From Halobacteriovoraceae bacterium (lineage in GTDB: Bacteria > Bdellovibrionota > Bacteriovoracia > Bacteriovoracales > Bacteriovoracaceae): a DNA stretch of 44,247 nt. The stretch spans positions 9,520 through 53,766 of the forward strand of contig PAKC01000092.1 in NCBI GenBank assembly GCA_002706205.1, written 5' to 3'. The notes beneath the pieces were generated by a model, which ran no database searches, was not told the DNA's origin, and saw only the letters and a list, made by a program, of their open reading frames with translations. The first letter of the stretch is position 1. The number at the start of each line of letters is the position of its first letter. This document shows, one piece after another, positions 3,810-21,954 of the stretch. A program made the translations under genes and the position numbers.

Positions 3810-3837
3810 TAAAGTTATTGCCAGTATTTATCGATAA
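3810..3837 (+). promoter_or_regulatory. sigma-28 (FliA)-type promoter upstream of the GYF-domain gene
   Basis: TAAAGTTA (3810-3817), 12 nt, ATCGATAA (3830-3837), ending 26 nt before the ATG at 3864. The family consensus is TAAAGTTT-N11-GCCGATAA. The same motif with the same 12-nt spacing recurs before cheX, cheY and the chemoreceptor remnant. Confidence 0.6.
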
Positions 3838-3863
3838 GTCTCAAGAGACAATGAGGTTTTATC

Positions 3864-5075
3864 ATGGATGAATTAAAGAAAAAAATAGATTTAAAGCCCT
3901 TAACAGACCAACAAATTAAAGAACGCTCAGTTTCTTTGACGGATCTTTGGATGGTGCGAACAGAATCTGAAGAAATTTTAGGTCCATTTGATACAGAGTC
4001 TTTAAAAACTTATACCGGTAATCATCAACATTTATTTGAAAATACACAAGTATACAATCTCGAAAGTGAAAAATGGTTTGAAACTTTTAAAGTTTCTTAT
4101 TTTCAAAGAAGAAAACCAGCTTTTATGTCTGCCCAAAATCTCATCAAATCAGATGAGTTTTATATTATGATTAACGGACAAAAAAATGGACCTTATCACA
4201 AAAATGAAGTTCAAGCTTTTTTAAAAAATGGACAAATATCTCCCAGCTCACAAGTATCACTTGATAAGGGAGAGTCATGGATAAAACTTTACGAACACCA
4301 TGCATTTGACCGACGAGAGAAAAAGTCAAATCAAGAATTACCCTTCACCCCTGCTCCAGAGCTTCTAGAAAAGATGGCCAAAACCAAAGAAGACATACTT
4401 AAAGCCAAGCAACAAGAAGATGCTATTATAGAATTAGCTTATATTGGACACTCCAAGAACACCTCTGATTCAACGACTAAAAAAACCAAAACGACTCTTA
4501 CTGAAGACAATAATACACCTAAATCAAAACTAAAAAGTTACGTTACAGTTTTTGCTACCATGACACTTATTATTTTTGCGACGACAGTTTTTATTCAAAG
4601 TACGAATGAGTCTCAAAAAAGAATCGAAGCGAAAACAGACCCTAAAAGTATCGATAACTCAAATAGGAATTTAAGAAAACCTGCTTCGGTTGAAACAAAA
4701 CAACCTCCTAAGACCAAAGTTCAACATAAAAGAATTAAGCCAGTAACACGCAAAAGAGTCGAGCCCAAAAGGTATCGTCCAACCGTAACAAGACCAAGCC
4801 CTCCCAAGCGTGAAAGAAGATCAAGAACTTCTTCCCCAAGATCCCGTCGAGTTGAAAGAAATATTGATTACGCTAATACTGTCGATCAAACTGAAGAAAG
4901 AATTGATATCAATGACCCAGAAATCCAAAGAGAAATAACACGTGAGTTATCAGGTGAATATGATCTTGATGGCGAATTACTTGATGAACAAGAAGTTCCA
5001 GAAGAATATTTTGACGATGAAGAAATCTTAGAAGAAGACTATCCAGATGATATGCGTCAAGAAGTTTATAGATAA
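3864..5075 (+). CDS. GYF_2 domain membrane protein, basic and acidic tail
   Basis: A 403-residue protein of unknown function. Two GYF_2 (DUF4339-type) domains are visible at about residues 28-76 (WMVRTESEEILGPFDTESL) and 98-146 (FYIMINGQKNGPYHKNEV). Each has the x-GPF/GPY core and the buried W. A Lys/Glu-rich stretch and one membrane helix (about 226-245, VTVFATMTLIIFATTVF) follow. Next come a Pro/Arg-rich segment (265-335) and a strongly acidic C-terminus (EEYFDDEEILEEDYPDD). GYF_2 domains usually bind proline-rich or other peptides. Here they should lie in the cytoplasm, with the charged tail in the periplasm. The ATG is preceded by GAGG and by a sigma-28-like promoter, which ties it by inference to motility. 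It is followed closely by tmk but probably forms its own transcript. Confidence 0.85.
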   Translation: MDELKKKIDLKPLTDQQIKERSVSLTDLWMVRTESEEILGPFDTESLKTYTGNHQHLFENTQVYNLESEKWFETFKVSYFQRRKPAFMSAQNLIKSDEFYIMINGQKNGPYHKNEVQAFLKNGQISPSSQVSLDKGESWIKLYEHHAFDRREKKSNQELPFTPAPELLEKMAKTKEDILKAKQQEDAIIELAYIGHSKNTSDSTTKKTKTTLTEDNNTPKSKLKSYVTVFATMTLIIFATTVFIQSTNESQKRIEAKTDPKSIDNSNRNLRKPASVETKQPPKTKVQHKRIKPVTRKRVEPKRYRPTVTRPSPPKRERRSRTSSPRSRRVERNIDYANTVDQTEERIDINDPEIQREITRELSGEYDLDGELLDEQEVPEEYFDDEEILEEDYPDDMRQEVYR

Positions 5076-5109
5076 TCATCAATAAGCTTATTTGCTAAAA
5101 ACAAGCATT

Positions 5110-5139
5110 TTTACAATTCAAGAAAAATTATGCTATCTT
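5110..5139 (+). promoter_or_regulatory. candidate leaderless promoter of tmk
   Basis: TTTACA (5110-5115), 18 nt, TATCTT (5134-5139), then six bases (CCCAAC) and the ATG at 5146. No Shine-Dalgarno sequence precedes this ATG. If the promoter is real, transcription would start at or next to the start codon. This also argues against the upstream TTG start used in the ORF track. Confidence 0.35.
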
Positions 5140-5145
5140 CCCAAC

Positions 5146-5823
5146 ATGAAAAAAACCACAAACTTAACTGACCTTGTAAAACCCTTCAAGGATCAATATG
5201 CCAAAGACTCTTATTTTGTCAGCTTTGAAGGAATTGAAGGCAGTGGAAAAACGACTCAAATCAATCTTCTCAAAGAAGATCTCATTACTCAGGGTTATAA
5301 GGTTTTACTCTTAAGAGAGCCTGGAGGGACTCATTTTGGAGAGAAATTAAGAGAAGTTATTCTAACATCTAATGAAAAGATTTCCCCTCTAAGTGAAGCT
5401 TTACTTTTTGCCTCATCAAGGGCCCAACTCTTAGAAAATAAAATATTACCATTTTTATCCCAACCTAAACATATTGTTATAATAGATAGATATATAGACA
5501 GCTCAATCGCCTACCAAGGGTTTGCGCGAAAGCTTGGAGTTGAAACAATTCTAAAAATTCATCACCATAGCCCGTTAAATATTCTCCCTAATCTCACATT
5601 TTACCTAGATATAAACTTAAACCTCTCCATGCAACGCCAAAGACTTAGAGGGCAAAACAAAGATTATTTTGAAAAAGAAGACCAAGACTTTTACCAAGAG
5701 CTTATAAACGGATATGAGTTCTGTGTTGAAAACTTCAAATCCCGGGTTAAAGTCATTGCTGCTGACAACACAATTGAAAATGTTGCGCAGCAAATTAAAA
5801 CTCATCTTGGAAATCTCCTATGA
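5146..5823 (+). CDS. tmk: thymidylate kinase
   Basis: Tmk phosphorylates dTMP to dTDP for DNA synthesis. The P-loop is FEGIEGSGKTT (residues about 27-37). The family motif REPGGTHFGEKLR follows, then IIDRYIDSSIAYQGFAR (the DR motif and base-binding region) and an Arg-containing lid region, RQRLRGQNKDYFEKE. I place the start at ATG 5146, giving 225 residues, and not at the TTG at 5092. The 18 extra residues carry no family sequence and overlap a promoter-like region. Even so, about 24 residues precede the first strand, longer than in E. coli Tmk. The stop overlaps the holB start as ATGA, so the two are coupled. The tmk-holB-ricT order is also found in Bacillus, where it belongs to a replication/maintenance cluster. 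Confidence 0.95.
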   Translation: MKKTTNLTDLVKPFKDQYAKDSYFVSFEGIEGSGKTTQINLLKEDLITQGYKVLLLREPGGTHFGEKLREVILTSNEKISPLSEALLFASSRAQLLENKILPFLSQPKHIVIIDRYIDSSIAYQGFARKLGVETILKIHHHSPLNILPNLTFYLDINLNLSMQRQRLRGQNKDYFEKEDQDFYQELINGYEFCVENFKSRVKVIAADNTIENVAQQIKTHLGNLL

Positions 5824-6539
5824 GCACAAACCTACAGAGTATTTTAAAAAATAAAGCACACAACAAGACACTCGCTTCACTCTATATTCTAGAAGCAACT
5901 TACTCCAATGAAAATCATCAATGCCTAGAATGGATAAAAGACTTATTGGCGCAAATAACAAATATAAATACTTCAAAATTAGAAAACGCCCAAGACATAC
6001 TTATTCTAGATGCAAATGACAAAAAAAATTATCAGCAAGAACATATCCAACAAATCTATCAGTTTTTAAGTTTTCAAGCTTTAGAGCTTGGCCAAAAGTT
6101 TCTCATCATCCCCGAATGTGAGAAGATATCAACAAATCATTACAACAAATTACTTAAAACTTTTGAAGAACCGCCTGTTGCCCTTACTGCATTTCTTATA
6201 AATGATCATAAAGTAAAAATTCTCCCCACCATTGAATCAAGAGCGATTCAATTAAAAATCCCGACTCAAAAAGCTCAACTTGATCCTCAATGGAAAGAAT
6301 TTCTTATTAAGTCGCATTCTTTAATCGAGTTTCTGGACTTTGTTGAAAAAAATGATTTAACACCTCATAAACTCTGTACACTTACTCTAGACATCATTCA
6401 ACAACACTCATCACATTATCAGCACTACGCACAAACGATTAAGGCCATTAAATCAATTCAAGAAGATATCAAATTTAATAACTCAGCTAGTCAAATAAAT
6501 GTCAAAATCTATCATATCCTTTCAAAACTAAGGGTTTGA
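5820..6539 (+). CDS. holB: reduced DNA polymerase III delta-prime-like subunit
   Basis: A 239-residue protein related to the clamp-loader delta-prime subunit, which works with DnaX and delta to load the sliding clamp. The best evidence is NKLLKTFEEPP (family LLK-LEEPP, the sensor/SRC-adjacent region) and KILPTIESRAIQL (family LLPTI-SRC). The upstream strand FLIIPECEKISTNHYN corresponds to the Walker B-like DADxM region. The N-terminal half has no Walker A motif and no zinc-binding cysteines. It is also shorter than the usual 300-330 residues, having lost most of the C-terminal collar domain. Position supports the call: it follows tmk with an ATGA overlap and precedes ricT, as holB does in many genomes. 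It may be a normal divergent delta-prime or a paralogue; no other clamp-loader gene is in the window. Confidence 0.75.
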   Translation: MSTNLQSILKNKAHNKTLASLYILEATYSNENHQCLEWIKDLLAQITNINTSKLENAQDILILDANDKKNYQQEHIQQIYQFLSFQALELGQKFLIIPECEKISTNHYNKLLKTFEEPPVALTAFLINDHKVKILPTIESRAIQLKIPTQKAQLDPQWKEFLIKSHSLIEFLDFVEKNDLTPHKLCTLTLDIIQQHSSHYQHYAQTIKAIKSIQEDIKFNNSASQINVKIYHILSKLRV

Positions 6540-6599
6540 CTAGTCGTCGCAGACGCTAGAGAATACTAATTCAATTTAGATGGTTATTTGGAATTAAAC

Positions 6600-8000
6600 A
6601 TGAATGATATACAAGAAAATACTGGTGAAAATAATCATCAGGATGAAATCAAAACAGAAAAAAGAAAAAAAAATAAATTTGCCGTAAAAGAAGAAATCAC
6701 TGAAGATAACTGTAAATTTACGGAAGGACAAATCCTACGCTTTGTACGAGTGCGTTTTCCAGGACATGCCAAGTCCTATGCTTTCTTACTTGGTCAAAGA
6801 AATTTAGCCTATGGAAAAAAAGTTATGGCCATGAGTGACCGTGGGATGGCCGTTGGTTATATTAACTCTTTTCCCTATGAATTAGCTTTTCACAAAGATA
6901 TGTTGCCACTTAGAAGTATCACAAAAGCTGCAACAGAAGATGATATTAGTAATGAAATAGATATTTATAAAAAACAAAAAGAAATTGAAACTTTATGCCA
7001 AAACTTAATTGAAAAACATAAGCTTGACATGAATCTCACCCATGTTGAGTTTACTCAATTTGGAAAAAAAGTTGTTTTTTATTTTGTCGCCCCAGCACGA
7101 GTTGATTTTAGAGGTTTAGTTAAGGACCTTGTCTCAGAATTAAAACTAAGAATCGAATTACGTCAAATATCAGTAAGGGATAGAGCTGCATCTCAAGGGG
7201 CCATAGGTCCCTGTGGTCGAGAACTTTGTTGTTCTTCCTTTCTCTCTAAGTATGGGAATGTCTCAATAAAAATGGCCAAAAATCAAAACCTTAGTCTTAA
7301 CTATTCAAAGCTCAACGGAGTCTGTGGCCAATTAAAATGCTGCTTGCAATATGAAGACGAAGTTTACGCTCAAAAACGAAAAAAACTCCCTCAAGAGGGA
7401 TCACTTATAAAAACAAAAAATGGCGATAGCGGTAAAGTCAAAAAACTAAATATTCTTAGTCAGCAGTTTGATCTGTTAACAGACAAAGGAAGAATTAAGC
7501 GCTACACCCATGACCAACTCAGTAAAACTTATAAAAATGGAGAATATAAATTCCCAACACATTTTGACAATATCTCAGATGAAACGGCGACAGTTGTAGG
7601 GCTTAATGATTTAGAGGCAAAAAAAACGCGTCAATTCGAAAAGGATATGGACAAACTTAAACTCAAAGCAAAACAATATGCTCATGAGGCAATTGAAGAC
7701 ATATCTGACTTTCTTCCACCAAGAGACCGTTCAGATGATCTCAAACAGATCAAACAAGAACAAGAACAAGAAAAACTAAAATCGTCCACACAGTTGCCAG
7801 AAGACAAGAGTACACAAACACCTCAACGTGATGATCATGGAACGACACAAAACAGCGACGAAATGCAAAGTAAAGATAAAGATGACAGAGCAAAAAAAAC
7901 TTATCGTCATCCAAAGAAGAAAAATTATAATAGAAGAAATAATCACTCTAAGGGCAGTTCACGTAGGAATAACAAAAAACCAAATTCTTCTAAGGATTAA
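6600..8000 (+). CDS. ricT: PSP1 domain protein, RicT/YaaT-like
   Basis: A member of the PSP1 family; Bacillus RicT (YaaT) acts with RicA and RicF in a complex that binds [4Fe-4S] clusters and modulates RNase Y maturation of mRNA. After a charged N-terminus, residues 46-255 carry the domain: VRFPGHAKSYAFLLG, VEFTQFGKKVVFYFVAP and RDRAASQGAIGPCG. The cysteine motifs GPCGRELCCSSFL (C205, C210, C211) and GVCGQLKCCLQYE (C242, C247, C248) are intact. A KOW-like segment follows (SLIKTKNGDSGKVKKLN). A 150-residue Lys/Arg/Gln-rich disordered tail suggests RNA contact. I chose ATG 6600 over the track's TTG 6588. Neither start has a clear Shine-Dalgarno sequence, so the start is uncertain by four codons. 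It sits directly after tmk-holB, the conserved neighbourhood. Confidence 0.88.
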   Translation: MNDIQENTGENNHQDEIKTEKRKKNKFAVKEEITEDNCKFTEGQILRFVRVRFPGHAKSYAFLLGQRNLAYGKKVMAMSDRGMAVGYINSFPYELAFHKDMLPLRSITKAATEDDISNEIDIYKKQKEIETLCQNLIEKHKLDMNLTHVEFTQFGKKVVFYFVAPARVDFRGLVKDLVSELKLRIELRQISVRDRAASQGAIGPCGRELCCSSFLSKYGNVSIKMAKNQNLSLNYSKLNGVCGQLKCCLQYEDEVYAQKRKKLPQEGSLIKTKNGDSGKVKKLNILSQQFDLLTDKGRIKRYTHDQLSKTYKNGEYKFPTHFDNISDETATVVGLNDLEAKKTRQFEKDMDKLKLKAKQYAHEAIEDISDFLPPRDRSDDLKQIKQEQEQEKLKSSTQLPEDKSTQTPQRDDHGTTQNSDEMQSKDKDDRAKKTYRHPKKKNYNRRNNHSKGSSRRNNKKPNSSKD

Positions 8001-8002
8001 GG

Positions 8003-9202
8003 ATGTCTTCTAAAGAGATCTTTAAAATTATTCACACGTCAGACTGGCACCTTGGAAAAAAACTCTTTAAGGCCATAAGAGAAGAAGAGCATCAAGCCTT
8101 TTTAGACTGGCTTTATCAATATATTCAACAAAACGATATCAATCTTTTAATTATTGCTGGTGATATTTTTGATGTTCCAGGACCGCCTTATAGCGCACAA
8201 AAGATGCTCTATAATTTAGTTCACAAGATGGGGAAAATCAAAAACTTCCAAACAGTTATTATTACAGGCAATCACGACTCGCCGGCCTTATTTGAGGTGC
8301 CCAAGGCTTTTTTCGAAGAGCATAATTGTCATGTTTATACAAGACTCGAAAAAGACCTTACAAGACTAGAACATATAATCAGCTTTCAAGATCAAAAGAT
8401 TGCTTTAAAACTCCTGCCCTATTTCAGGAATTACGAGCTTTTAAATCAACTTGAGCAAAGAGGCTTGAAAAATGATCCAAGTGGCCTCAAGGTTTTTTTT
8501 AATGATTTTTTTTCGAGCTGGACTCAAGAGTCTCTAGACCATAAAATTTTAGTCGCTCATCATAGTTTTGGCGACTTTATGGCAACAGGCAGTGAACATG
8601 CCATCCATCTTTCAGGACTAAGCCATTTTCCCTTAGAATGGGTTCTGCCGCACTTTGATTACGTAGCACTCGGACATATTCATAAAAAACAAAAATTGAC
8701 ATCAAAAAAGCCTGTTTTATACTCAGGCTCTCCCCTTCCTCTACGTTTCAATGAATCAAACAACAAAAATATTATTGAAATTGATTTGACAAAAAAATCC
8801 CTAACATACAAAGAAGTTAATATCCCACTCATAAAAAGTCTCATACAAATAAAGACAAATACAGATTTTTTTATCGAAGATATTAAATCATTTCTTGCAA
8901 CAATAGATGATAATCATTATTACTATCTAGAAGTTCAAATGGAATTCACTCAAGCTGCATCAGGAATCGCTGATCATGTAAGGTCTCTTATCAAAAACCA
9001 TCCAGTCGAACTTTTATCCTTTATTCCTACACTGACACAAACAAATGAGAAAAAACTATCATATGGACAGATAAACGAATTAAATATTCAAGAACTCTTT
9101 GAAAACTACTACCAATATAAATATGATGGCAAAGAGGTTCCTTCTGATCTTAAAAAGAGTTTTCAAGAACTCTTAGATGAGGTTCATCGTGAAAATTCAT
9201 AA
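8003..9202 (+). CDS. sbcD: exonuclease SbcD (Mre11-type nuclease subunit)
   Basis: SbcD is the metal-dependent nuclease that, with the SbcC ATPase, cleaves hairpins and processes DNA ends. The 399-residue protein shows all calcineurin-like phosphoesterase motifs in order: HTSDWHLGKKL (residues 11-21), LIIAGDIFDVPGPP, VIITGNHDSP, VAHHSFGDF and VALGHIHKKQ. The C-terminal capping region contains YSGSPLPLRFNE. The ATG follows the ricT stop by two bases and is preceded by AAGGAT inside the ricT end, so it is in the same transcription unit. The 3' end overlaps sbcC by 14 nt when the GTG start of sbcC is used. Confidence 0.97.
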   Translation: MSSKEIFKIIHTSDWHLGKKLFKAIREEEHQAFLDWLYQYIQQNDINLLIIAGDIFDVPGPPYSAQKMLYNLVHKMGKIKNFQTVIITGNHDSPALFEVPKAFFEEHNCHVYTRLEKDLTRLEHIISFQDQKIALKLLPYFRNYELLNQLEQRGLKNDPSGLKVFFNDFFSSWTQESLDHKILVAHHSFGDFMATGSEHAIHLSGLSHFPLEWVLPHFDYVALGHIHKKQKLTSKKPVLYSGSPLPLRFNESNNKNIIEIDLTKKSLTYKEVNIPLIKSLIQIKTNTDFFIEDIKSFLATIDDNHYYYLEVQMEFTQAASGIADHVRSLIKNHPVELLSFIPTLTQTNEKKLSYGQINELNIQELFENYYQYKYDGKEVPSDLKKSFQELLDEVHRENS

Positions 9203-12200: not shown

Positions 12201-12449
12201 GCCATGGCCTTAGCAGAACTTACCAGAGGCTCTACCCAAATTGACTCCCTATTTATTGATGAAGGCTTTGGTACTTTAGATGAAGAAGCTATTGACGAAG
12301 TCTATCAGTTATTACAAGTCATTCAAAATACAGGCAAGCAAATTGGGATTATTTCCCATGTCAAAGACTTAACTACTCGAATTCCAATTAATATTCATCT
12401 GGCCAAAAGCACAGAGGGCCATTCAAAGATTTCTGTAGTACAGAACTAA
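9189..12449 (+). CDS. sbcC: exonuclease SbcC (Rad50-type ATPase subunit)
   Basis: SbcC is the SMC/Rad50-like ATPase partner of SbcD. Walker A is ITGQTGAGKST (about residues 34-44), followed by a Q-loop region and two long coiled-coil arms rich in Lys, Glu and Gln. At the apex is a zinc hook CVVC (C518 and C521). The C-terminal lobe has the ABC signature LSGGETFLVSLAMAMALAEL, Walker B SLFIDEGFGTLDEEA and the H-loop IISHV. I prefer GTG 9189 (MKIHNLSIKNMASLDGE, giving 1086 residues) over the ATG at 9177. GATGAGGT lies five bases before this GTG, and family members begin MKI. The start lies inside the sbcD end, giving tight coupling. Length is about 40 residues above E. coli SbcC (1048), in the arms. 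Confidence 0.97.
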   Translation: MKIHNLSIKNMASLDGEHEINFDKIMQDSHLFAITGQTGAGKSTILNCISLALYGKVYKKNSTGFDFITLGKPEGEVSLIFSSSGKKYKANWKQRIAKKNGEPLKNPELKRQIFVLESSSEKAIDTPIEEITNLTYTQFCKTTILNQGQFSKFLTSNFTQRKEILEKFYQGDDLNLISNVLKEKIKRQVQLKDEKSNLIEGLTQSFNKKVLTKQELTSLENELQHYSKDEKQIVQLKKYLKETIEALQLIKKNQEKKNYLKEQITSINRKLNEALDQLNIYTKKSFQIKDNFANKKPLLLESLTKLEEKKQYQAQSQELTAERQESINQLKNVTSKITQIQSQKNEIQHQQEKLKAKSKTLQSPKLKSFDKYYDMMMNYYSDRDLAQNNLNHTLQQLKSRENKLSELSSHIETIQKKFEILSNKDLTNKAQDLEQKIKLLEQTTYQYSQLNMEEEKNKSLLDELKVNLTQIDKELNLTQEELNTLKINKTKKTKELEKFKLDAAIHLCQKTSQEQGNCVVCHSDKQLSTSHFSPHESEDHNLTNELKLLEEREASLQKQYLQWEVKKTTTKDQFSKAQQNQQKMIKAKNSLIEKLKEQIAHKISLSDSDLKKTLLVLEEERDIILDQTQQKNILTEQLRSKKQDQTELSEEVTSLRKNKVVLQQKLDNLQQNKDHQIKDYQAFSYIQTVQDLKDNKEMIQHFLDLDSNSMLLNIELKSLNQNKEELESLQQKIDFKKQNIEDKIKQLTVFLQNNTSTGDPKREMEQWENEIKEIDSKVVNIKDQIKIYEIEYAQLKSKLESTLEQLEQTELLKKSYIYELFEVTKTPPLCLQTNPQQFSSLEKIFSKLINMDENKTDLNILELTFQEISQQVEIFNKLIREKEKNYLEQLGYYKQKKQTEEKIKIFNSELTLINEKLAKLDELYQVIGKDEFRNYVLSTIENLLLEQTNTELKILCQGRYGLSQTNKAHKMASEFVIVDYFHDAKMRKISTLSGGETFLVSLAMAMALAELTRGSTQIDSLFIDEGFGTLDEEAIDEVYQLLQVIQNTGKQIGIISHVKDLTTRIPINIHLAKSTEGHSKISVVQN

Positions 12450-12466
12450 CCTATTAAAATTCAGCT

Positions 12467-12494
12467 TTGAGATAAAAATTTTATAAAGTATAAT
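12467..12494 (+). promoter_or_regulatory. alternative sigma-70-like promoter upstream of cheX
   Basis: TTGAGA (12467-12472), 16 nt, TATAAT (12489-12494). It overlaps the sigma-28-type element at 12484-12511. Dual control is possible, or one of the two is chance in AT-rich sequence. Confidence 0.35.
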
Positions 12495-12511
12495 AACAAA
12501 ATATTCGATAA
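12484..12511 (+). promoter_or_regulatory. sigma-28 (FliA)-type promoter of cheX
   Basis: TAAAGTAT (12484-12491), 12 nt, TTCGATAA (12504-12511), about 38 nt before the cheX ATG at 12550. Spacing and core are the same as at the GYF, cheY and chemoreceptor-remnant loci. The chemotaxis gene downstream supports it. Confidence 0.6.
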
Positions 12512-12549
12512 TGATTTTGTTACTAATCTCAATTAAAGGTTTAATTATT

Positions 12550-13065
12550 ATGAGTGATAATTATTTTGTAAAATTTTCCAAACCATTTTTAGATGCCCTT
12601 TCTGAAACATTTGAAATGATGGTTCAAACAAAGATTTCAGCTCACTCTCCTAAAATTAAGACAAATAATGTTGCTCACGGTGATATAACTGCTCTCATTG
12701 GGATGAATGGAAAAGTCGAAAGAGACGGCCAAGAAAAAGACTTTAAAGGCTTAATGGCCATATCATGGCCTGAAGATATGTATGTTAAACTTGCCGGTAG
12801 AATGTTATTTGAAGAATATACAGAATACTGTGAAGATATTGCTGACTCCGGAGCAGAGATATGTAACATCGTCATGGGAAATGCAAAGAATGGGTTAACT
12901 CCCTTAGGCTATAAAATAGATATGGCCACACCGAGTACCGTCAGAGGTAAAAATCACGAAATTAAATATCCTGCCAAAACAACAGTTGTTGAAATTACTT
13001 TATCTTGTGATTTAGGAGATTTTTCTTTAGAGCTATGTTATCAAGAACATGCTATTAATAGCTAG
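12550..13065 (+). CDS. cheX: CheX-family CheY-P phosphatase
   Basis: CheX dephosphorylates phospho-CheY to end the motor signal. The 171-residue protein has the family catalytic motif ExxN in SGAEICNIVMGNAKNGL (E103 and N106). It also has the typical first strand GDITALIGMNGK and the late strand VVEITLSCDLGDFSLELCY. The track start at 12511 adds 13 unsupported hydrophobic residues. ATG 12550 has AAAGGT nine bases upstream and gives the usual N-terminus. A sigma-28-type promoter precedes it. It converges with the HD-GYP gene; the two TAG stops abut in a GCTAGC palindrome. cheY lies 1.1 kb away. Confidence 0.9.
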   Translation: MSDNYFVKFSKPFLDALSETFEMMVQTKISAHSPKIKTNNVAHGDITALIGMNGKVERDGQEKDFKGLMAISWPEDMYVKLAGRMLFEEYTEYCEDIADSGAEICNIVMGNAKNGLTPLGYKIDMATPSTVRGKNHEIKYPAKTTVVEITLSCDLGDFSLELCYQEHAINS

Positions 13066-14019
13066 CTAAAGACCTGCTTTTTTAACAAAAGCTTTAAATT
13101 TTTTCATAATATCAAGTTCGTAATTTCCTAATTGATTCATATTAAAATCATCTAAGACCTCTGCCCGCGTTTTACCCAAACAAGTTACTTCTCGATCATA
13201 AAAAGCACAAATAGACATCACCTCTTGGGCAGGTGTAAGCTGAGTTAATTTATTTGGAAATCCATTTCCATTTTTTTTCTCTTCATGGCTTAAAACCAGA
13301 TCAATAACTTCTTTGCTGGCAAAATCTTTATCTTGTAAAATTACGCTACCAACCTTAGGATGCTCTTTATACTCTGTCAGCTCAGCGGCCTCCATCTCTT
13401 TCATCGGTTTAAAAAATAAGGCTTTCTTCTGCTCATCATATTGAGAATAAGCAATATCATGAAAAAGACCCGCAACGCCTAAAAATTCGACTAAAGATTT
13501 ATCTAACTTTAAATACTCTGCAAAACTTATGCATAACGAAGAAGTATTTACCGAATGTCGTTGCATGAGGGCATCATTGGACTTGCTTTCTTCATCAATT
13601 TTATGATCAAAAATTCCTCGCAATAATTCATCACTTTGCCCCAACACATTAATCAGATTAGTTGCAGTATTTTGAGCAGCATCGTAAGATTTTTTAGAGT
13701 GTGGATCTTCATAAATTCTTTCAGCCGTTGCTTCTCCCGCGCCAATAACCAGCGAAGACTTCTCCTCCAAACTGGTACTCTCATCATTAATCGCTTCACT
13801 TAAACAGCGGTCAATATAAGCCTGATAAGAACTTTCCGCACTCTCCTGTATAAAAAGTTTACGGACCTTTTTACCTTTTAAATACTTGATTCTATGGGCT
13901 TCAATATCATCACTTCCTCTGGCATATAATAGCACTTTATGAGGGAGTTGAATATAAACATCAAAACCTAATTGGATATCACTCTTTAAAGTTGATACTC
14001 TTATTGGAAGAAATCCCAT
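13066..14019 (-). CDS. HD-GYP-like domain protein
   Basis: HD-GYP proteins hydrolyse cyclic di-GMP. This 317-residue protein has an N-terminal domain (about 1-75) of a type I cannot name. A linker and then an HD-type domain from about 150 follow. The expected ligands are present: H155 (RHSVNTS), H187-D188 (LFHDIA), H220 (EHPKVG), H245-E246 and a late D in AFYDRE. The signature region reads HEEKKNGNGFPNKL, so the canonical HHE-DGSGYP has drifted: first H to S, GYP to GFP, and no Lys after HD. It may still bind metal, but activity on c-di-GMP is uncertain. AAAGG precedes the ATG. It lies between cheX and cheY on the opposite strand. It resembles the more decayed HD-GYP protein at 15120-16145 in domain order. 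Confidence 0.8.
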   Translation of the reverse strand: MGFLPIRVSTLKSDIQLGFDVYIQLPHKVLLYARGSDDIEAHRIKYLKGKKVRKLFIQESAESSYQAYIDRCLSEAINDESTSLEEKSSLVIGAGEATAERIYEDPHSKKSYDAAQNTATNLINVLGQSDELLRGIFDHKIDEESKSNDALMQRHSVNTSSLCISFAEYLKLDKSLVEFLGVAGLFHDIAYSQYDEQKKALFFKPMKEMEAAELTEYKEHPKVGSVILQDKDFASKEVIDLVLSHEEKKNGNGFPNKLTQLTPAQEVMSICAFYDREVTCLGKTRAEVLDDFNMNQLGNYELDIMKKFKAFVKKAGL

Positions 14020-14111
14020 TTTAATTATCCTTTGATTAATTAAGTATAATATTTATCCTTGGCATAATAAAGAAATTATTGAATGACCACTAAACTCCAG
14101 TAATTTTTTAT

Positions 14112-14139
14112 TAAAATTTAATAGGTTCTTTTCCGATAA
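14112..14139 (+). promoter_or_regulatory. sigma-28 (FliA)-type promoter of cheY
   Basis: TAAAATTT (14112-14119), 12 nt, TCCGATAA (14132-14139), 44 nt before the cheY ATG. Seven of eight bases match the family consensus in each half (TAAAGTTT, GCCGATAA). It is the best match of the four sites in the window. Confidence 0.7.
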
Positions 14140-14183
14140 TATTATAAAATAAAGCATAACTTTTTATTCAGGAGCTAGAAATT

Positions 14184-14582
14184 ATGGCCTTTAACCCTAA
14201 ACAAAAGATACTAATCATAGATGATATGAGCACGATGAGAAAAATCATCAAAAACATGCTCGGGAAAATGGGATGTAACGATCTCCACGAAGCAGATGAC
14301 GGAGCCCCAGCTTGGGAAATGATCCAACAGGCCCATGAAGCAGGAAAGCCTTTTGAATTTATTGTATCAGACTGGAACATGCCAGGCTTAACAGGTCTAG
14401 ATCTCTTAAAAAATCTCCGTGCAGATGAACGCTTTAAAAAGCTCCCCTTTTTAATGATTACAGCTGAGGCTGAACAAGCAAATGTCATTATTGCTGTTAA
14501 GGCAGGTGTAAGTAATTTTATTGTTAAACCTTTTTCAATTGTTACTCTTAAAGAAAAAATTGATAAAATTTTTCCAGGATAA
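14184..14582 (+). CDS. cheY: chemotaxis response regulator CheY
   Basis: A stand-alone 132-residue receiver domain of CheY type; phospho-CheY binds the flagellar switch to change rotation. Acidic pocket D13-D14 (IIDDMSTMRK), phospho-acceptor D63 (VSDWNMPGLTGLDLL), T93 (MITAEAE) and K115 (VKPF) are all present. The DDMSTMRKIIKNML start and the WNMPGLTGLDLL stretch are close to E. coli CheY. AGGAG lies upstream of the ATG, preceded by a strong sigma-28-like promoter. Five bases separate it from the 168-residue gene downstream, so the two are co-transcribed. No CheA, CheW or flagellar switch gene is in this window. Confidence 0.95.
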   Translation: MAFNPKQKILIIDDMSTMRKIIKNMLGKMGCNDLHEADDGAPAWEMIQQAHEAGKPFEFIVSDWNMPGLTGLDLLKNLRADERFKKLPFLMITAEAEQANVIIAVKAGVSNFIVKPFSIVTLKEKIDKIFPG

Positions 14583-14587
14583 ACTTT

Positions 14588-15094
14588 ATGTCTATGCTAC
14601 AAGATCCAGAGATGGCCGAAATTGTCGATGACTTTTGCAAAGAGTCTGAAAAAATCTATGAGCAGTTAGAAGAAATGCTAGAAGACTATGAAGAAACAAA
14701 AGACCCAAAAAAATTAGAAGAATTTGGTCAAGTCATAGATCGAATTATGGGAGCTGCAAAGTCTGTTGATGCTGTTCAAACTGGAGTTTATTGTGAATTA
14801 GGAAAAACGATTAGCTACAAGGCCAGTCAATCTATGGACAAGGCTTTATTGGATATTGTTGTTGCTGTACTTTTTGACACAGTTGAAATTTTACAAGTCA
14901 TGAATAAAAATATCGAAAAAATAAAAGAAGAAAAAGTTTCAGGTATTAATTTAGAAACTTTTTCTACAAGATTAAGATGGTTAGCAGACAAGTTTAAAGA
15001 TATTCAAAGATCTTCTGTTGCAATTGGAGCTAACGAAAAACAACTTGGTGATCAAAAATCTATTGATGATCTCTTAAGTGATCTAGGACTCTAA
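14588..15094 (+). CDS. CheY-operon helical protein with CheZ-like C-terminal peptide
   Basis: A 168-residue, almost entirely helical protein whose family I do not recognise with certainty. Residues 10-65 resemble a CheA-type histidine phosphotransfer helix pair (FCKESEKIYEQLEEML, then VIDRIMGAAKSVDA against AAHTLKGSAG), but the phospho-histidine is replaced by Asp. The same segment reads FGQVIDRIM, close to the CheZ active-site helix TGQVIKRMM with catalytic Gln, here Q48 with Glu at the -4 position where CheZ has Asp. The last residues, DQKSIDDLLSDLGL, closely match the E. coli CheZ C-terminus DQVDDLLDSLGF, the peptide that docks on CheY. It is translated 5 nt after cheY, with AGGAT upstream. 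Inference: a CheY-binding protein, perhaps a short divergent CheZ-like phosphatase. An inactive Hpt scaffold is the alternative. Confidence 0.7.
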   Translation: MSMLQDPEMAEIVDDFCKESEKIYEQLEEMLEDYEETKDPKKLEEFGQVIDRIMGAAKSVDAVQTGVYCELGKTISYKASQSMDKALLDIVVAVLFDTVEILQVMNKNIEKIKEEKVSGINLETFSTRLRWLADKFKDIQRSSVAIGANEKQLGDQKSIDDLLSDLGL

Positions 15095-15112
15095 GGCTTG
15101 ACATAAAATGCG

Positions 15113-15137
15113 GCTATCATTATAGCTGATCTTTTTT
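15113..15137 (+). terminator. weak terminator-like hairpin after the cheY operon
   Basis: GCTAT (15113-15117), loop CATT, ATAGC (15122-15126), followed by TGATC and a run of six T (15132-15137). It overlaps the 3' end of the convergent HD-GYP-like gene. The short stem keeps confidence low. Confidence 0.35.
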
Positions 15138-16145
15138 AGCAAGGTCTTTTTCCAAATCATTAAGTAAGAAGCTGCCCAAACTTTCAAGTAGCCTTGGAGG
15201 AAAATTCACATTGACTCCTTCAGCGCTTACACCTTTATGGAATAACTCTATTGTTTTGATAAGGTCGGTCTTTCGTCCATTAATTTTTCCACTAGAATAC
15301 ATAATAATTTGATCTGAGAGATTTACTATAAAAGAAAGATAAGCGATATGATCTTCTTTTTTTTGTCTTGGAAAGCCAGAACCATCAGTTTGTTCGTGCT
15401 GTTCCAAAATAATTCTTTTTATCTCTGTTGGAAACTCATATCCGATCTTAGAAAGAATATAAATACTTAACATAGGATGTTTTAAGTAGATATTATGATT
15501 TTCTAAGTCTGCATAATTTTTAAAAAGTTCTGTACTCAAAACGCTCAAACCAAAGTCTTTCATTAAAGAGGCCATAATAATAGCGACCAATTTTTCTCGA
15601 TCTGTAATTTTGTTTTGACGAGCAAGAAAAAAAGCAAAAGCAGCTACTCGTACAGGGAGCATATCTCTAGAGAATGTTTTATCAACAACTTCTGTACACA
15701 TTGATGTTAAATCTGACTCATACAAAGGATAACACATAACTTCACTTTTTACTCTCTCAATAAGAGGCAAAAAATCATTTGTTTTTGCTATTGTTTGTAA
15801 TATTTTTTTTAACAGAAACTTTTCTTTTGCTTTCTCTTCATATTTCTTCAATCTCGATTCTTGTAAATTGAACATTTTAAAATAAAAAGCATTAAGCTCC
15901 ATTAACTCATCATGACTTACATTTGTCTCATAATGAAAATCATCTTTATCATCTTTATAAAGCTGTAGATAAGCCCCCTTTGCTTCAAGTTCAAGCCACG
16001 ACTCTTTAAGTTCACCAGTTAAAGGTGAATTAGCATATAAGGCCACTATTCGATGTTCACGCATTTTATCAAAGAGAAAGATATTAAATGAGTAAACTCG
16101 ATCCAATTCAAAAAAGTCGGATTTTAACTTGTAAAAAGAAATCAT
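15120..16145 (-). CDS. degenerate HD-GYP domain protein
   Basis: A 341-residue protein with an unnamed N-terminal domain (about 1-95), a short coiled coil (96-112) and a C-terminal HD-GYP-like domain. The signature region EQHEQTDGSGFP (248-259) and LKHPMLSIYIL (H223) are kept, and NLSDQ supplies the late Asp. The HD pair has become KD at 196-197 (SLMKDFGL), and the first ligand His is missing near residue 164. Without these ligands it is unlikely to be an active c-di-GMP phosphodiesterase. A binding or scaffold role is more likely. Its ATG abuts the stop of the 780-residue gene (TAAATG), so they form one coupled unit. Its domain order is the same as in the HD-GYP protein at 13066-14019, which keeps the ligands. 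Confidence 0.78.
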   Translation of the reverse strand: MISFYKLKSDFFELDRVYSFNIFLFDKMREHRIVALYANSPLTGELKESWLELEAKGAYLQLYKDDKDDFHYETNVSHDELMELNAFYFKMFNLQESRLKKYEEKAKEKFLLKKILQTIAKTNDFLPLIERVKSEVMCYPLYESDLTSMCTEVVDKTFSRDMLPVRVAAFAFFLARQNKITDREKLVAIIMASLMKDFGLSVLSTELFKNYADLENHNIYLKHPMLSIYILSKIGYEFPTEIKRIILEQHEQTDGSGFPRQKKEDHIAYLSFIVNLSDQIIMYSSGKINGRKTDLIKTIELFHKGVSAEGVNVNFPPRLLESLGSFLLNDLEKDLAKKDQL

Positions 16146-18488
16146 TTAACTCCCCTTTGCCTTTTCAAACTCTTCTAGAATTGCTCCTTTGAGTATCAAA
16201 GCTAACAGCTCTACCTTTGTTGCATCTGCGTGGGTCTTGATTGTTCCTCTAAAATGGCATAGAGCAAAGCCTAAATATTCACCTTCTTCAAAATACGGAT
16301 AAATAAACTCATTAAGCTCTGTCTGATACGTTTCATCATTCCAAAATGGAAGTTTTTGTTGGTACCAACTTTCTAAGTTTTCTCTCTCAAAATTCTCAAA
16401 ATCATTTTGTACAACTTCATTCTTTCGAGCGATATGCCCTGAATAAAGACAAGCTTTACAATTTTTATTATTGCTTTCAGCAGCACTATCTCGAGAGAGA
16501 TATAAACTCATATCCCCATCATATTCCTTAATCAAAGCAAAATGAATAAATTTATAAAGTTGTTCTTTTGTCATATTATCTTTAAAAAGAAAATCATTAT
16601 GAATAACCAAATATTCCAAACCGTAAGAAAGGTTTTCATAAAAAGTATATTCAGGCTGCTCTAAAAGCTTGTCTGCAATTTTTTTGTTAACTGCAGATTC
16701 ATCTTCAGTAGATAAATAAAGTTCTCCCGACTTTTTTAGTTTTTTAAATTCAGAATAATCAAGAGTTTGTTCTAGTTTTTTCTTATTCTCCTGTCCAAGG
16801 GCCAATTGTTCATCTTTTTTCTTTTTTGCTTCTAAGTCTATTTCTTGATTTTTATTTTTAGCACCACCAATTAATATTTCATTAAAAGGTTTTTTCTTCT
16901 TATTTTGATTTTCATCATCTAATGATTGACTGCCAGTCACCTTCTCTTTATCTAGATCAATTTCATTAAACTGTTTCTTTTTGTTGTTTTCTTCTTGAGT
17001 TAAAAATTCAGTATGATTTTTCTTCGTCGTCGTATTGTCTTCTTCAAAGTTTGATTTTTTCTTATTTTTTGATATATCAACTTCTTCAAAATCATTTGAT
17101 TTTTTTGCAAGATCCTCTTCGCCAATAACAGCATTAGATCTTTTTTTATTGAGTTCATAATCATCAAGTTGAAGTTTTTTTAACTCTTTATCTTCTAGGA
17201 CCTCTTCTATGATTCCTCTATTCTTCTTTTCTAATTCATCCAATTCATCTAAGAGTTTCTTTTTTTTCTTAGCAAGCTCTAAGACTTGTATTTCTAATCC
17301 TTTTTTCTTTTTTTCTTCATATTCTTGATCAAATTGTACTCGTTTTTTTTTGTAGTCATTTTCGATCTCTGTGAAATTCTTCTTTTTTAATTCCATTTTT
17401 TGTTGATTTTTTTCTAATTCGGCCCTTTTTCGATTTAAATCTTGCTGTGCCGCTTCAAACTTTTTCCGCTTATTTCTTTCTTCCTCAGTTTCTCCCACTT
17501 TAGGTAAAGACTTTTTTTCAAACTGTCGTTGAACTTCGTCAAACTGAGTTTTTTTTCTATTTAGCTCTTTTTCGTTTTCTTTAAAACTGGCCCTTTTGCG
17601 ATTAATTTCCTGCTCAACTTCTTCAAAGGTTTTGCGTTTAGATTCATTTTCAACTTCTGCTAAATTTAGTCCCTCTCTACGTTTTTGACTTAGCTCTCCA
17701 AGTGGCTTTATATCAAGCCCCTTGTACGGATTTTTCTTTAACTCTGCCTCAACAGGCGTAAATTTTCCATTTTTTGCCTTAGAGGCTTGAGCAACAGGTT
17801 CAAATTCACTTGTCCTTTTAAGTTGAAAAGAGTCAAAGTCAGAGTTTAAAAAAGACATATCAGTTGAATTCTTCTTTAAGTTAAAATTTGATAAGGGACT
17901 CGCTCCAATAAGAACTCCTCCCTTATTTTTTTTGCTGGCCTTATTTCCAAAATCTGAATTATTTTCCTCATCAAGAATGGCCATTTTTTCGACTCTTAGT
18001 TTTTCTTTAGAATCATAAGCCTTTTTTTCACTTTCACCTATTAAAGTTTTTCCTCCCATAAATTGCTCTGGTAAGGCCTTGTTTTTTTCTTCTTCTTCTT
18101 TTTTTTCCTGTTGTTCAAATGGAACAAAAAACATATTAATTTTATGCAAAAGACTCTTTTTATTTATATCTTCTGAAACAACTTCATCTAAACCATTCTT
18201 TTGTAATTTAGAAAAAATATGAGGAGGGATATTTTTAGCTTGTATAAGTATGTTTTTTGACTTTTTATCACGTACAAATTTTTTACATTCATTTAAATAA
18301 AGTTCGGTTTTTTTTAAATCTGCTGAAAATGTCACGGCATGTTCCATGACACCAATTAATTGATGATACTCGCTGAGCGAATCAAGCTCATAAACTGTAT
18401 AAGAATTGTCTTCCTCTACACTCGCTTTCAACTGTTGCAACTTATCGGATAAAGGATAAAGAAAAACCACGTTTCGTTCGATTGCCAT
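16146..18488 (-). CDS. pseudo-receiver protein with long Lys-rich repeat region
   Basis: A 780-residue protein with no family I recognise. Residues 1-125 have the alternating pattern of a receiver-like fold and end GLDEVVSEDINKKSLLHKINMFF, but there is no phospho-acceptor Asp. Residues about 130-590 are extremely Lys/Glu/Asn-rich. They contain imperfect units such as ELNRKKTQFDEVQ and DLNRKRAELEKNQ with a near-14-residue period, and later units of form KKxxFNE (NKKKQFNEID, NKKKKPFNEI). Part is probably coiled coil and part disordered. The C-terminal 180 residues are globular, contain CKAC and end with a GAF-like pattern (GEYLGFALCHFRG, then LLALILKGAILEEFE). It is the first gene of a unit with the degenerate HD-GYP gene. 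No Shine-Dalgarno sequence precedes the ATG, but TATAAT does, six bases away. Confidence 0.8.
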   Translation of the reverse strand: MAIERNVVFLYPLSDKLQQLKASVEEDNSYTVYELDSLSEYHQLIGVMEHAVTFSADLKKTELYLNECKKFVRDKKSKNILIQAKNIPPHIFSKLQKNGLDEVVSEDINKKSLLHKINMFFVPFEQQEKKEEEEKNKALPEQFMGGKTLIGESEKKAYDSKEKLRVEKMAILDEENNSDFGNKASKKNKGGVLIGASPLSNFNLKKNSTDMSFLNSDFDSFQLKRTSEFEPVAQASKAKNGKFTPVEAELKKNPYKGLDIKPLGELSQKRREGLNLAEVENESKRKTFEEVEQEINRKRASFKENEKELNRKKTQFDEVQRQFEKKSLPKVGETEEERNKRKKFEAAQQDLNRKRAELEKNQQKMELKKKNFTEIENDYKKKRVQFDQEYEEKKKKGLEIQVLELAKKKKKLLDELDELEKKNRGIIEEVLEDKELKKLQLDDYELNKKRSNAVIGEEDLAKKSNDFEEVDISKNKKKSNFEEDNTTTKKNHTEFLTQEENNKKKQFNEIDLDKEKVTGSQSLDDENQNKKKKPFNEILIGGAKNKNQEIDLEAKKKKDEQLALGQENKKKLEQTLDYSEFKKLKKSGELYLSTEDESAVNKKIADKLLEQPEYTFYENLSYGLEYLVIHNDFLFKDNMTKEQLYKFIHFALIKEYDGDMSLYLSRDSAAESNNKNCKACLYSGHIARKNEVVQNDFENFERENLESWYQQKLPFWNDETYQTELNEFIYPYFEEGEYLGFALCHFRGTIKTHADATKVELLALILKGAILEEFEKAKGS

Positions 18489-18494
18489 TTTAAG

Positions 18495-18500
18495 ATTATA
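18495..18500 (-). promoter_or_regulatory. TATAAT -10 element, possible leaderless start of the 780-aa gene
   Basis: On the minus strand TATAAT is followed by CTTAAA and then the ATG at 18488. No -35 hexamer or ribosome binding site is visible. The whole element lies in the 31-bp gap after the upstream hypothetical gene. Confidence 0.35.
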
Positions 18501-18519
18501 GCATAAATAACATCATCTT

Positions 18520-19326
18520 TTAGGAAGATATTCCTTGAATTTTTACTTGTGACTTGTTCTGCCAATAGTTCATAAAATAGTAATAATGATAGTTTACATA
18601 AAGCTGTACAAATTTCCGAGTATTTCTGTCAACCTCCAAAACCCTGATGTACTCTTTAAGTTCAGACTCCCTATATTTCATAAAAATTTTATGTAAAATT
18701 TTTTTCATAAATACTTCTGAGCTATCGACTCTCGACTCAATTTCTGCATAATTAATAAACTTATCAAAACCTGACCCATTTCTTAAACGCAAGATAGTTT
18801 TTTTATTTGGAAACATAGTCGACCAAAGGTTTTTAATTTTATCCAACTGTAAACTATAGCCACATAATCGATAAATTTCACTTAACAAACTTATTCTTTT
18901 TAAAGATTTAGGCTTTTGCTTGTAACTTTGCCCATCGAATAAATCATAATAAAAACTGTAAAGATCACGTTGATAAGTTTGGTCAGCTAAAATTTTAACA
19001 AAAAAATGATTATTCCTGGCCAAGAGATTGATTTTTTTTAACTGGGCCGAAGAAAAGCTTGAATTTAACTTAGACACAAATTTTCTTCTATAATCTAAAT
19101 AATCAAACTCCTGCCAAACGAATTTTTGTTGATAAAGCTTTTTTAATTTGTAATCAGTTTCACTAATTTGATAGATATTTTGATATTGATCAATCTTTTT
19201 AACATTTTCAAAGAAATCTCTTAAACCGATTTCTATATAGATTGAATCTGCTATAGTTTCAATTTGTCCATACGCCGGATGGCCAATAAAAAATATAAAA
19301 AGCAAAATATAAGGTTTCATTCTCAC
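18520..19326 (-). CDS. secreted hypothetical protein
   Basis: A 268-residue protein with a clear signal peptide (MKPYILLFIFFIGHPAYGQ, cleavage likely after AYG) and no transmembrane helix after it, so it is probably periplasmic. The mature part is rich in Tyr, Phe, Lys and Ile and is mainly helical. A segment SSFSSAQLKKINLLARNNHFFVKIL loosely recalls DUF2059-like helical secreted proteins, but I would not assign that family. Only one Cys is present. The second Met (MKPYIL) is an equally good start. It follows asnS by 39 nt on the same strand and may be read through from it. No function can be given. Confidence 0.7.
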   Translation of the reverse strand: MRMKPYILLFIFFIGHPAYGQIETIADSIYIEIGLRDFFENVKKIDQYQNIYQISETDYKLKKLYQQKFVWQEFDYLDYRRKFVSKLNSSFSSAQLKKINLLARNNHFFVKILADQTYQRDLYSFYYDLFDGQSYKQKPKSLKRISLLSEIYRLCGYSLQLDKIKNLWSTMFPNKKTILRLRNGSGFDKFINYAEIESRVDSSEVFMKKILHKIFMKYRESELKEYIRVLEVDRNTRKFVQLYVNYHYYYFMNYWQNKSQVKIQGISS

Positions 19327-19365
19327 TCTATCGACAAATAGAATGAGAACAAAACTTAAATAAAG

Positions 19366-20748
19366 TTAAAATTCAATATGGTTTGGGGTTCTATAAAAAG
19401 GAATAACATCACGAATATTACTCATCCCTGTAATATACATAATAGCTCTTTCAAATCCGAGTCCAAAACCAGAATGAGGAACACTTCCAAAACGGCGCAA
19501 ATCTAAGTACCAATTATACAAAGATTCTTCCAAATTAAGCTCTTTCATTCTCTTAGTTAATTTATCTAAGTCTTCTTCTCGTTGTGAGCCACCAATAATT
19601 TCACCAACTCCTGGAACTAAAATATCCATAGCACGAACTGTTTTATTATCATCATTCTGTTTCATATAAAATGCTTTAATTCCTTTAGGATAATCTGTAA
19701 CAATAACTGGACCTTTATAGTACTCATCAGTTAAATATCTTTCATGTTCAGTTTGTAAGTCTGCTCCCCACTCAACAGGATAATCAAAACTTTTATTACT
19801 CTTAATTAATATATCGACTGCTTCGGTATACGTTATTTGCTTAAAATCAGAAGTTGAAACTTTTGTAAGTTTATCTATTAAACCTTTTTCAATGAATCGA
19901 TTAAAAAACTCTAACTCATCTTTACAATACTTTAAGGCATGTTTAATCATATATTGAATATATTCGGCACCCAACAAAGCGATTTCATCCAAATCAGCAA
20001 AAGCGACTTCTGGCTCTATCATCCAAAACTCTGATAAATGCCTCGTTGTATTAGAATTTTCTGACCTAAATGTTGGTCCAAAAGTATAAACACTCCCCAT
20101 TGAACAAGCAAAAGCTTCAGCTTCTAATTGACCTGTCACACATAAATAAGACTCCTTGCCAAAGTAGTCCTTTTCCCAAATAATATTGCCAGATTTATCA
20201 TATGGCATATTCTTAGGATCCAAAGTAGAGACTCTAAACAACTCTCCAGCTCCTTCAGCATCCATAGCTGTTAAAATTGGTGTGTGGATATAATAAAAAC
20301 CTTTATCACTAAAAAACCTATGCGTCGCTTGGGCCAGTTCATGTCTTACTCGAAAAACCGCACCAAAAGTATTTGTACGAGGTCGCAAATGAGCTATCTC
20401 ACGTAAAAACTCCATCGATGTCCCTTTTTTTTGTAAAGGATAATCTTGGGGAGCTTTACCTAAAACTTCAATTGAATTAGCATGAACTTCAACTGGTTGC
20501 TTTCCCTTAGATTCAACTAATTTACCATATATTGCAAAAGCAGAACCTGTTAATGACTTCGTAAAGTCTTCATAGCCTTCTAACTGATCATCGGCAATGA
20601 TTTGTAGATCTTTTTGACAAGAGCCATCATTAATAACAATAAAGGAGAACGATTTAGAAACCCTTATACTTCGAATCCAACCTTTAACCAAAATATCTTG
20701 TCCCGAGGGCTTTGTAGCATAAAGCTCTTTAACAGTAGACCTTTTCAT
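19366..20748 (-). CDS. asnS: asparaginyl-tRNA synthetase
   Basis: A class IIb aminoacyl-tRNA synthetase that charges tRNA-Asn. Residues 1-110 form the OB-fold anticodon-binding domain (VKGWIRSIRVSKSFSFIVINDGS). The catalytic core shows motif 1 around FFSDKGFYYIHTPILT, and motif 2 FRSENSNTTRHLSEFWMIEPE. Motif 3 is GFGLGFERAIMYITGMSNIRDVIPF. GVGEIIGGSQREEDLDKL and the ending YRTPNHIEF distinguish AsnRS from AspRS. Length, 460 residues, is typical. GAGGAG lies ahead of the ATG. The gene follows a terminator-like hairpin of the porin gene, so it has its own promoter, which I could not fix with confidence. Confidence 0.98.
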   Translation of the reverse strand: MKRSTVKELYATKPSGQDILVKGWIRSIRVSKSFSFIVINDGSCQKDLQIIADDQLEGYEDFTKSLTGSAFAIYGKLVESKGKQPVEVHANSIEVLGKAPQDYPLQKKGTSMEFLREIAHLRPRTNTFGAVFRVRHELAQATHRFFSDKGFYYIHTPILTAMDAEGAGELFRVSTLDPKNMPYDKSGNIIWEKDYFGKESYLCVTGQLEAEAFACSMGSVYTFGPTFRSENSNTTRHLSEFWMIEPEVAFADLDEIALLGAEYIQYMIKHALKYCKDELEFFNRFIEKGLIDKLTKVSTSDFKQITYTEAVDILIKSNKSFDYPVEWGADLQTEHERYLTDEYYKGPVIVTDYPKGIKAFYMKQNDDNKTVRAMDILVPGVGEIIGGSQREEDLDKLTKRMKELNLEESLYNWYLDLRRFGSVPHSGFGLGFERAIMYITGMSNIRDVIPFYRTPNHIEF

Positions 20749-20799
20749 CTTTTTCTCCTCACTTACCTATAATTAAATAACCTCAGCATAACTCAAAAG

Positions 20800-20829
20800 C
20801 CCTTTATCGTCCAGAATGACACTAAAGGG
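20800..20829 (-). terminator. terminator of the porin gene
   Basis: On the minus strand CCCTTTA pairs with TAAAGGG around a loop containing an inner GTC/GAC pair, followed by CTTTTG. It starts just after the porin stop codon and separates porin from asnS. Confidence 0.55.
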
Positions 20830-20833
20830 TTAC

Positions 20834-21865
20834 TTAAAAACTAACACCGTAGTCAACTTGAAGCTTAGTATAATCATCCTCAGTTGTATCGATGTTCTTT
20901 TTATTAACAAAATATCCAAATGATAAATATTCATGATCAGTTAGCTTATACTTCCCCCAATAAATAAACCCAGAAGAGTCGGTCGTTTTTCCAGCAAAGT
21001 CGCCGTCAGCAAAGTCACGGTTAGCTCCATTCGCTTCAACTGTACGGTGATTTAATCCCACAATCCATGATCCTTTCTTCTTGGCCTTCCCCATAGAAAA
21101 GCCAACATAGTTTGAAGAGTTATTATCTTCAGCTTCATTGTTTTTAATCGAAGAGATAGCTATTGTGATAGGATACTTCCAAGCATATTTTAATTCCCCA
21201 TAAACTTCTAAAAAGTTTAAGCCTTCACCTGTGGAATTAGGGTCATAACCGACTTTCCTAGCATTTTCATAATGATATTGGGAAACTCCAAGATTATAAG
21301 CAAAATCTCCGCTTTCTCTTTCATAACCAATTTGAGAAGCCGACAAAGTCACATCGGCGCCATCTTGAGTAGAAGAAGCTTTGTTTTCATCAACCCAAAA
21401 CGAAGCAAGATTTAAATAAGCTCCTGAAAACTTATAATTCACATGAAGACCATCAAAGCTCACATCACTATCCCAAAACATCTGATTCTTTCCTGCTTTC
21501 GTAAAAACCTGCTTCATTCTTCCTATGTTAAATATAAGATCGTTATACTTTTTTTGAATTGTGGCCCGATCAATATAGATATCCTTAGGTTTACTTTGGT
21601 TACCTAATGTCGAATTAGTCGTTGTCACACTTGGTCCATCGCTTGTGGCCAGACGTAATTCAAATTTCATCTGATCATTAATTTGATATAAGCTCCCAAT
21701 TCTTACTCGTATTCTATGGCGATTGCGTCCCTCACTAGCCGCTTCGTCCTTAGAGTTTTCAAATCTATAGCGAAAATCAGCACTGGGAGTAATTTGATCC
21801 CAATTAGACTCCCCTTTGACACTTAATACACTTAACATAACCGTCCAAAACAGTATTTTTTTCAT
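20834..21865 (-). CDS. putative outer-membrane porin
   Basis: A 343-residue outer-membrane beta-barrel protein. It has a signal peptide (MKKILFWTVMLSVLSVKGES) and a mature start ITPSADFRYRFENSKDEAASEG-like, as in putative porins of the Porin_5 type. Alternating amphipathic strands follow throughout, such as MKFELRLATSDG and YLNLASFWVDENK. The last strand KLQVDYGVSF ends in the C-terminal Phe recognised by the BAM machinery. The substrate is unknown. CGGAG lies before the ATG. It is divergent from the chemoreceptor remnant and is transcribed alone, with a terminator hairpin after its stop. Confidence 0.8.
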   Translation of the reverse strand: MKKILFWTVMLSVLSVKGESNWDQITPSADFRYRFENSKDEAASEGRNRHRIRVRIGSLYQINDQMKFELRLATSDGPSVTTTNSTLGNQSKPKDIYIDRATIQKKYNDLIFNIGRMKQVFTKAGKNQMFWDSDVSFDGLHVNYKFSGAYLNLASFWVDENKASSTQDGADVTLSASQIGYERESGDFAYNLGVSQYHYENARKVGYDPNSTGEGLNFLEVYGELKYAWKYPITIAISSIKNNEAEDNNSSNYVGFSMGKAKKKGSWIVGLNHRTVEANGANRDFADGDFAGKTTDSSGFIYWGKYKLTDHEYLSFGYFVNKKNIDTTEDDYTKLQVDYGVSF

Positions 21866-21926
21866 TTTAACTCCGAAAATGATATATATATAAGTTCTTG
21901 AATATGTTCCCTTCTTTAAAAAATTA

Positions 21927-21954
21927 TCAATTTTTTACAAGTATTTGTCGATAA
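21927..21954 (+). promoter_or_regulatory. sigma-28-type promoter of the chemoreceptor remnant
   Basis: TCAATTTT (21927-21934), 12 nt, GTCGATAA (21947-21954), 36 nt before the ATG at 21991. It has the same geometry as the three other sites. The -35 half is the weakest of the four. Confidence 0.5.

Follow-up and report, generated by a model that had tools for sequence, protein, structure and literature searches.

The four sigma-28-type sites described here are very probably promoters for the flagellar sigma factor FliA that belong to a genome-wide regulon of the Bdellovibrio kind, one using two spacings and reaching a broad set of targets. They lie in the window, i.e., the whole stretch of 44,247 nucleotides that was analysed (contig C3:9520-53766), in an AT-rich genome of 2.9 Mb and 104 contigs (referred to as G000) from a Bdellovibrionota relative of Bacteriovorax. 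The nearest named relative found was Bacteriovorax sp. DB6_IX, with 63% identity in a class II tRNA synthetase, probably lysyl-; the scan of genome contigs with this synthetase gave this one relevant close relative and otherwise many unrelated phyla. One FliA protein in the genome scores above the family cutoff (C75:358-1032; 272.6 bits versus a cutoff of 189.6), and it is full-length and aligns across its length with solved FliA structures. Presumably, this FliA binds the window sites and the sites are active. RNA polymerase carrying it would read sites 1 to 3 and, less surely, site 4.

Sites in the window and the genes behind them

The initial annotation had reported four sites with an N12 spacer, located 26 to 44 nt upstream of start codons on the same strand. 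All four were found on the plus strand, correct in position and letters (Table 1), and the gaps between the −10 element and the likely ATG are 26 nt (ATG 3864), 38 nt (ATG 12550), 44 nt (ATG 14184) and 37 nt (ATG 21992) for sites 1 to 4, respectively. Throughout this study, g is the number of bases separating the 5-base −35 core (TAAAG) from the 7-base −10 element (nCGATAA), and all four window sites have g=16.

Table 1. Candidate sigma-28 sites in the window and the features downstream of them
Feature	Position	Strand	Remarks
Predicted sigma-28 (FliA) promoter 1	3810..3837	+	TAAAGTTA-N12-ATCGATAA; core form TAAAG-N16-TCGATAA
GYF_2-domain protein, 403 aa	3864..5075	+	downstream of promoter 1; orthologues across the family
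Predicted sigma-28 (FliA) promoter 2, of cheX	12484..12511	+	TAAAGTAT-N12-TTCGATAA
cheX, CheX-family chemotaxis phosphatase	12550..13065	+	Pfam PF13690, E=4e-17
Predicted sigma-28 (FliA) promoter 3	14112..14139	+	TAAAATTT-N12-TCCGATAA; core form TAAAA-N16-CCGATAA
cheY-like response regulator, single-domain	14184..14582	+	Pfam PF00072, E=1.5e-25
168-aa protein	14588..15094	+	5 nt 3' of cheY; without Pfam family
Site 4, weaker, sigma-28-like	21927..21954	+	TCAATTTT-N12-GTCGATAA; core form TCAAT-N16-TCGATAA
Chemoreceptor (MCP) remnant, frameshifted	21992-22870	+	MCP signalling frame 22161-22736
Possible further sigma-28-like site, weak	42545..42571	−	TTAAT-N15-GTCGATAA; 12.3 bits

The pattern TAAA-N15..20-CGATAA matches the window four times versus 1.1 expected, and 2 of 100 shuffles reach four matches. 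When sites were scored with a hand-set sigma-28 matrix, using 20 dinucleotide shuffles of the window as the null, three sites with g=16 scored at least 14 bits, as compared to 0.2 in the shuffles. All three are intergenic, in a window of which only about 8% falls outside ORFs, and each shares the strand of the gene that follows it. The sites at 3810, 12484 and 14112 clearly exceed what chance would give. Site 4, at 13.6 bits with the hand-set matrix, is not significant when taken alone. The possible additional site on the minus strand lies 47 nt upstream of an ORF of 1346 aa (38457-42497), which has a signal-peptide-like N-terminal stretch and matches no Pfam family. Rfam and tRNA scans over the window gave no matches.

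The GYF_2-domain protein downstream of promoter 1 is no known motility protein. The start of cheX was set at ATG 12550, behind AAAGG, since the start of the longer ORF, at 12511, falls on the −10 element; the sequence and an alignment with a congener both point to this position. Judging from its spacing, the ORF next to cheY probably shares the cheY transcript. The initial annotation had counted three chemotaxis genes among the four, and the Pfam matches bear this out for cheX and cheY, while the third is a pseudogene-like MCP remnant behind the weaker site. This remnant is broken near its 5' end (the frame from ATG 21992 stops after 25 codons) and has a truncated signalling domain (the MCP frame spans only profile positions 4-116 of 172), with the sigma-28-like site still upstream. 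HD-domain (HD_5) proteins adjoin cheX and cheY on the minus strand (13066-14019 and 15120-16145), and a PilZ protein is encoded nearby on the plus strand (27974-29161), an arrangement that suggests a c-di-GMP/chemotaxis signalling cluster.

Sequence comparison shows conservation of promoters 2 and 3 in G003, the closest congener. Upstream of its cheX gene, the −35 and −10 boxes are identical and the spacer is one base shorter; the cheY promoter is recognisable, with its −10 element TTTTCCGATAAT kept. For promoter 1, the −35 element is kept in three congeners and the −10 element has diverged, reading CGACAC, CGTAAA and CGAAAA. Beyond the closest congener, cheX and cheY are in a different gene arrangement; most relatives outside the genus have no recognisable site before either gene, and elsewhere in the family sites before the GYF, cheX and cheY genes are mostly absent. 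Deep conservation of the window promoters is ruled out by this altered arrangement together with the mostly missing sites, and membership of the predicted regulon appears to turn over quickly.

It is possible, if on balance somewhat doubtful, that only part of the window sites are active, with 2 and 3 being FliA promoters and 1 and 4 being decaying or marginal. This reading is a milder version of the explanation favoured here and partly coincides with it. It would account for the altered −10 element of promoter 1 in all three congeners, and for site 4, which reads TCAAT and has a pseudogene downstream. However, the fit of promoter 1 to the consensus is roughly that of the flagellin promoters in its own genome.

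The motif across the genome and its two spacings

Genome-wide, THAAG-N16/17-CGATAR has 62 matches versus 24 for a reversed-pattern control. This was a pattern search rather than a scan with a whole-genome matrix; the flanks of all 62 motif sites and all 24 control sites were taken, and ORFs were called mechanically. Intergenic positions account for 34 of the 62 motif sites, each with a same-strand ORF at most 160 nt downstream, versus 1 of the 24 control sites; a same-strand ORF in such a position was found for 0/24 controls (Fisher p=7e-7). Three more sites are promoter-like, namely the cheX site and two sites located 20-32 nt inside a mechanically called ORF, giving a strict promoter-like set of 37. 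Mechanically called coding sequence holds 28 of the 62 strict matches, a number similar to the 24 control matches, and individual sites can therefore be due to chance. Identical motif matches inside ORFs were seen on the contig pairs C4/C102, C15/C47 and C92/C95, which are probably redundant contig ends or repeats. The genome-wide excess and the intergenic, same-strand placement mean that sigma-28 promoters are well supported. The original assignment to sigma-28/FliA thus holds up, with a full-length fliA gene in the genome and an enriched motif that sits just upstream of genes including those for flagellins and fliD.

The E. coli-type canonical promoter, TAAAGTTT-N11-GCCGATAA, corresponds to g=15, and the window sites are therefore longer by one base. 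Both spacings are in use. Within the strict promoter-like set, which includes two window sites, 24 of 37 are at g=16 and the other 13 at g=15; outside the window the numbers are 22 and 13 (leaving out the coding site C8:3637), and all strict matches in this genome divide into 33 and 29. Over 25 family genomes, g=15 gave 779 matches versus 399 for the control (1.95-fold, an excess of 380) and g=16 gave 766 versus 335 (2.29-fold, an excess of 431), while g=17 was not enriched (354 versus 394, 0.90-fold). These per-spacer counts, together with the shorter cheX spacer in G003, indicate that the spacing is bimodal and interchangeable. They do not agree with the proposal that a spacer one base longer is constant, and a fixed longer spacer as a lineage trait was rejected after each spacer length had been counted in 39 genomes. 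In the alignment, the FliA linker that precedes region 4 is a few residues longer than that of E. coli FliA; as a cause of flexible spacing, this is only suggestive.

The genome encodes five typical flagellins and one more distant flagellin-family protein. In the strict set, the filament promoters (three flagellins and fliD) are all canonical (4/4), and the other targets have the longer spacing in 22 of 31 cases, a split that was noticed post hoc and involves few sites. The family's FliA might then use the two neighbouring spacings purposefully, sorting its targets into classes by the length of the spacer. We consider this quite unlikely; two other flagellin promoters, which are not part of the strict set, fit N18, and the spacing of orthologous promoters changes from one congener to another.

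Targets of the predicted regulon

Outside the window, 35 proteins lie downstream of promoter-like sites, and five of them are flagellar or chemotaxis proteins (three flagellins, FliD and an MCP with a CZB domain). Other targets match FHA, a sigma-54 activator, a Ser/Thr kinase, PilZ, an HD domain (weakly), a matrixin-type peptidase, RHS repeats, cupredoxin, an ABC ATPase and TPR, as well as Flp pilin, the last being below the curated cutoff; 19 of the 35 have no Pfam family. By a crude heuristic, an N-terminal hydrophobic stretch is present in 20/35 targets versus 17/61 comparison ORFs (p=0.008), and many targets are likely to be exported. A FliA-type site lies 30 nt upstream of a Flp pilin ORF heading a TAD-like locus (C86:1-2500), which has three Flp-like ORFs as well as an ORF for a TadV-like prepilin peptidase, assigned to TadV from the look of its sequence and from synteny. 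Targets within the window comprise the GYF-domain protein, cheX, cheY with its downstream ORF, and the MCP remnant.

The mechanism we propose is that FliA would recognise T(A/T/C)AAG and CGATA(A/G) at both the canonical and the one-base-longer spacing, and would drive flagellar and chemotaxis genes, the TAD/Flp pilus locus, signalling genes and many genes for exported proteins. The sites would act in a free-swimming, attack-phase-like state.

The initial annotation had instead read the four sites as defining a regulon devoted to motility, whose N12 spacer is constant and may be specific to the lineage, and had asked for enrichment upstream of flagellar and chemotaxis genes. Genes for flagellins and FliD do follow sigma-28 sites, the spacing is the same at all four window sites, and two of these precede cheX and cheY. 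Nevertheless, this reading is very unlikely: the 13 canonical promoters in the strict set include those of three flagellins and FliD; the cheX promoter is shorter in the congener; the consensus published for B. bacteriovorus already shows the longer spacing (PMC3627812); and 30 of the 35 targets are neither flagellar nor chemotaxis proteins. A motility regulon is too narrow a description, and a motility-only regulon was rejected on the annotation of the targets.

It is more improbable still that the sites are chance matches in AT-rich sequence and the genes use ordinary sigma-70 promoters: the genome is AT-rich, CGATAA occurs 30 times in the window, and site 4 and the coding-strand matches would be compatible with chance, but the position, the strand, the reversed-pattern control, the enrichment at two of the three spacings tested across 25 genomes and the conserved boxes at cheX all argue against it.

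Relation to known FliA regulons

FliA-dependent class 3 promoters of E. coli and Salmonella mostly have one spacing. The predicted promoters described here share their recognition elements (TAAAGTTT and GCCGATAA) as well as flagellin and chemotaxis targets, but differ from them in using two spacings and in having a far wider target set.

Previous work had defined an attack-phase FliA regulon in B. bacteriovorus HD100 with the consensus TTAAG-N16-CCGATA, present in 92 of 140 attack-phase promoters, and had found targets exceeding flagella, including surface proteins, proteases and chemotaxis proteins (Karunker et al. 2013, PMC3627812). The −35 and −10 elements, the N16 spacing and the presence of targets beyond flagella are alike in the two regulons (PMC3627812). 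They differ in that the present genome is from another lineage, is AT-rich and, by its sequence, uses both the canonical and the longer spacing. FliA controls the TAD/Flp pilus operon of both B. bacteriovorus and B. exovorus, and for Bdellovibrio a reporter demonstrated that the TAD operon is under FliA (PMC5430801). The Flp/TadV arrangement found here is as reported for the Bacteriovorax TAD/Flp locus (PMC5430801), with a predicted FliA site in front of it.

With an N16 consensus (24 of the 37 promoter-like sites), a Flp/TAD target and likely exported targets, the predicted regulon is closer to the FliA regulon of the Bdellovibrio attack phase than to a motility regulon. A broad FliA regulon and the longer spacing are already known from Bdellovibrio, and the present genome adds a member. 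The widening of FliA's role beyond the flagellum to broad regulation, which has been RNA-mapped in Bdellovibrio, is thereby provided with sequence evidence in a Bacteriovorax-related genome, and the idea of a fixed, lineage-specific spacer is corrected. The two-spacing promoter pattern could be used to predict exported and pilus genes that are co-expressed with motility, and the same widening of FliA probably holds throughout the family.
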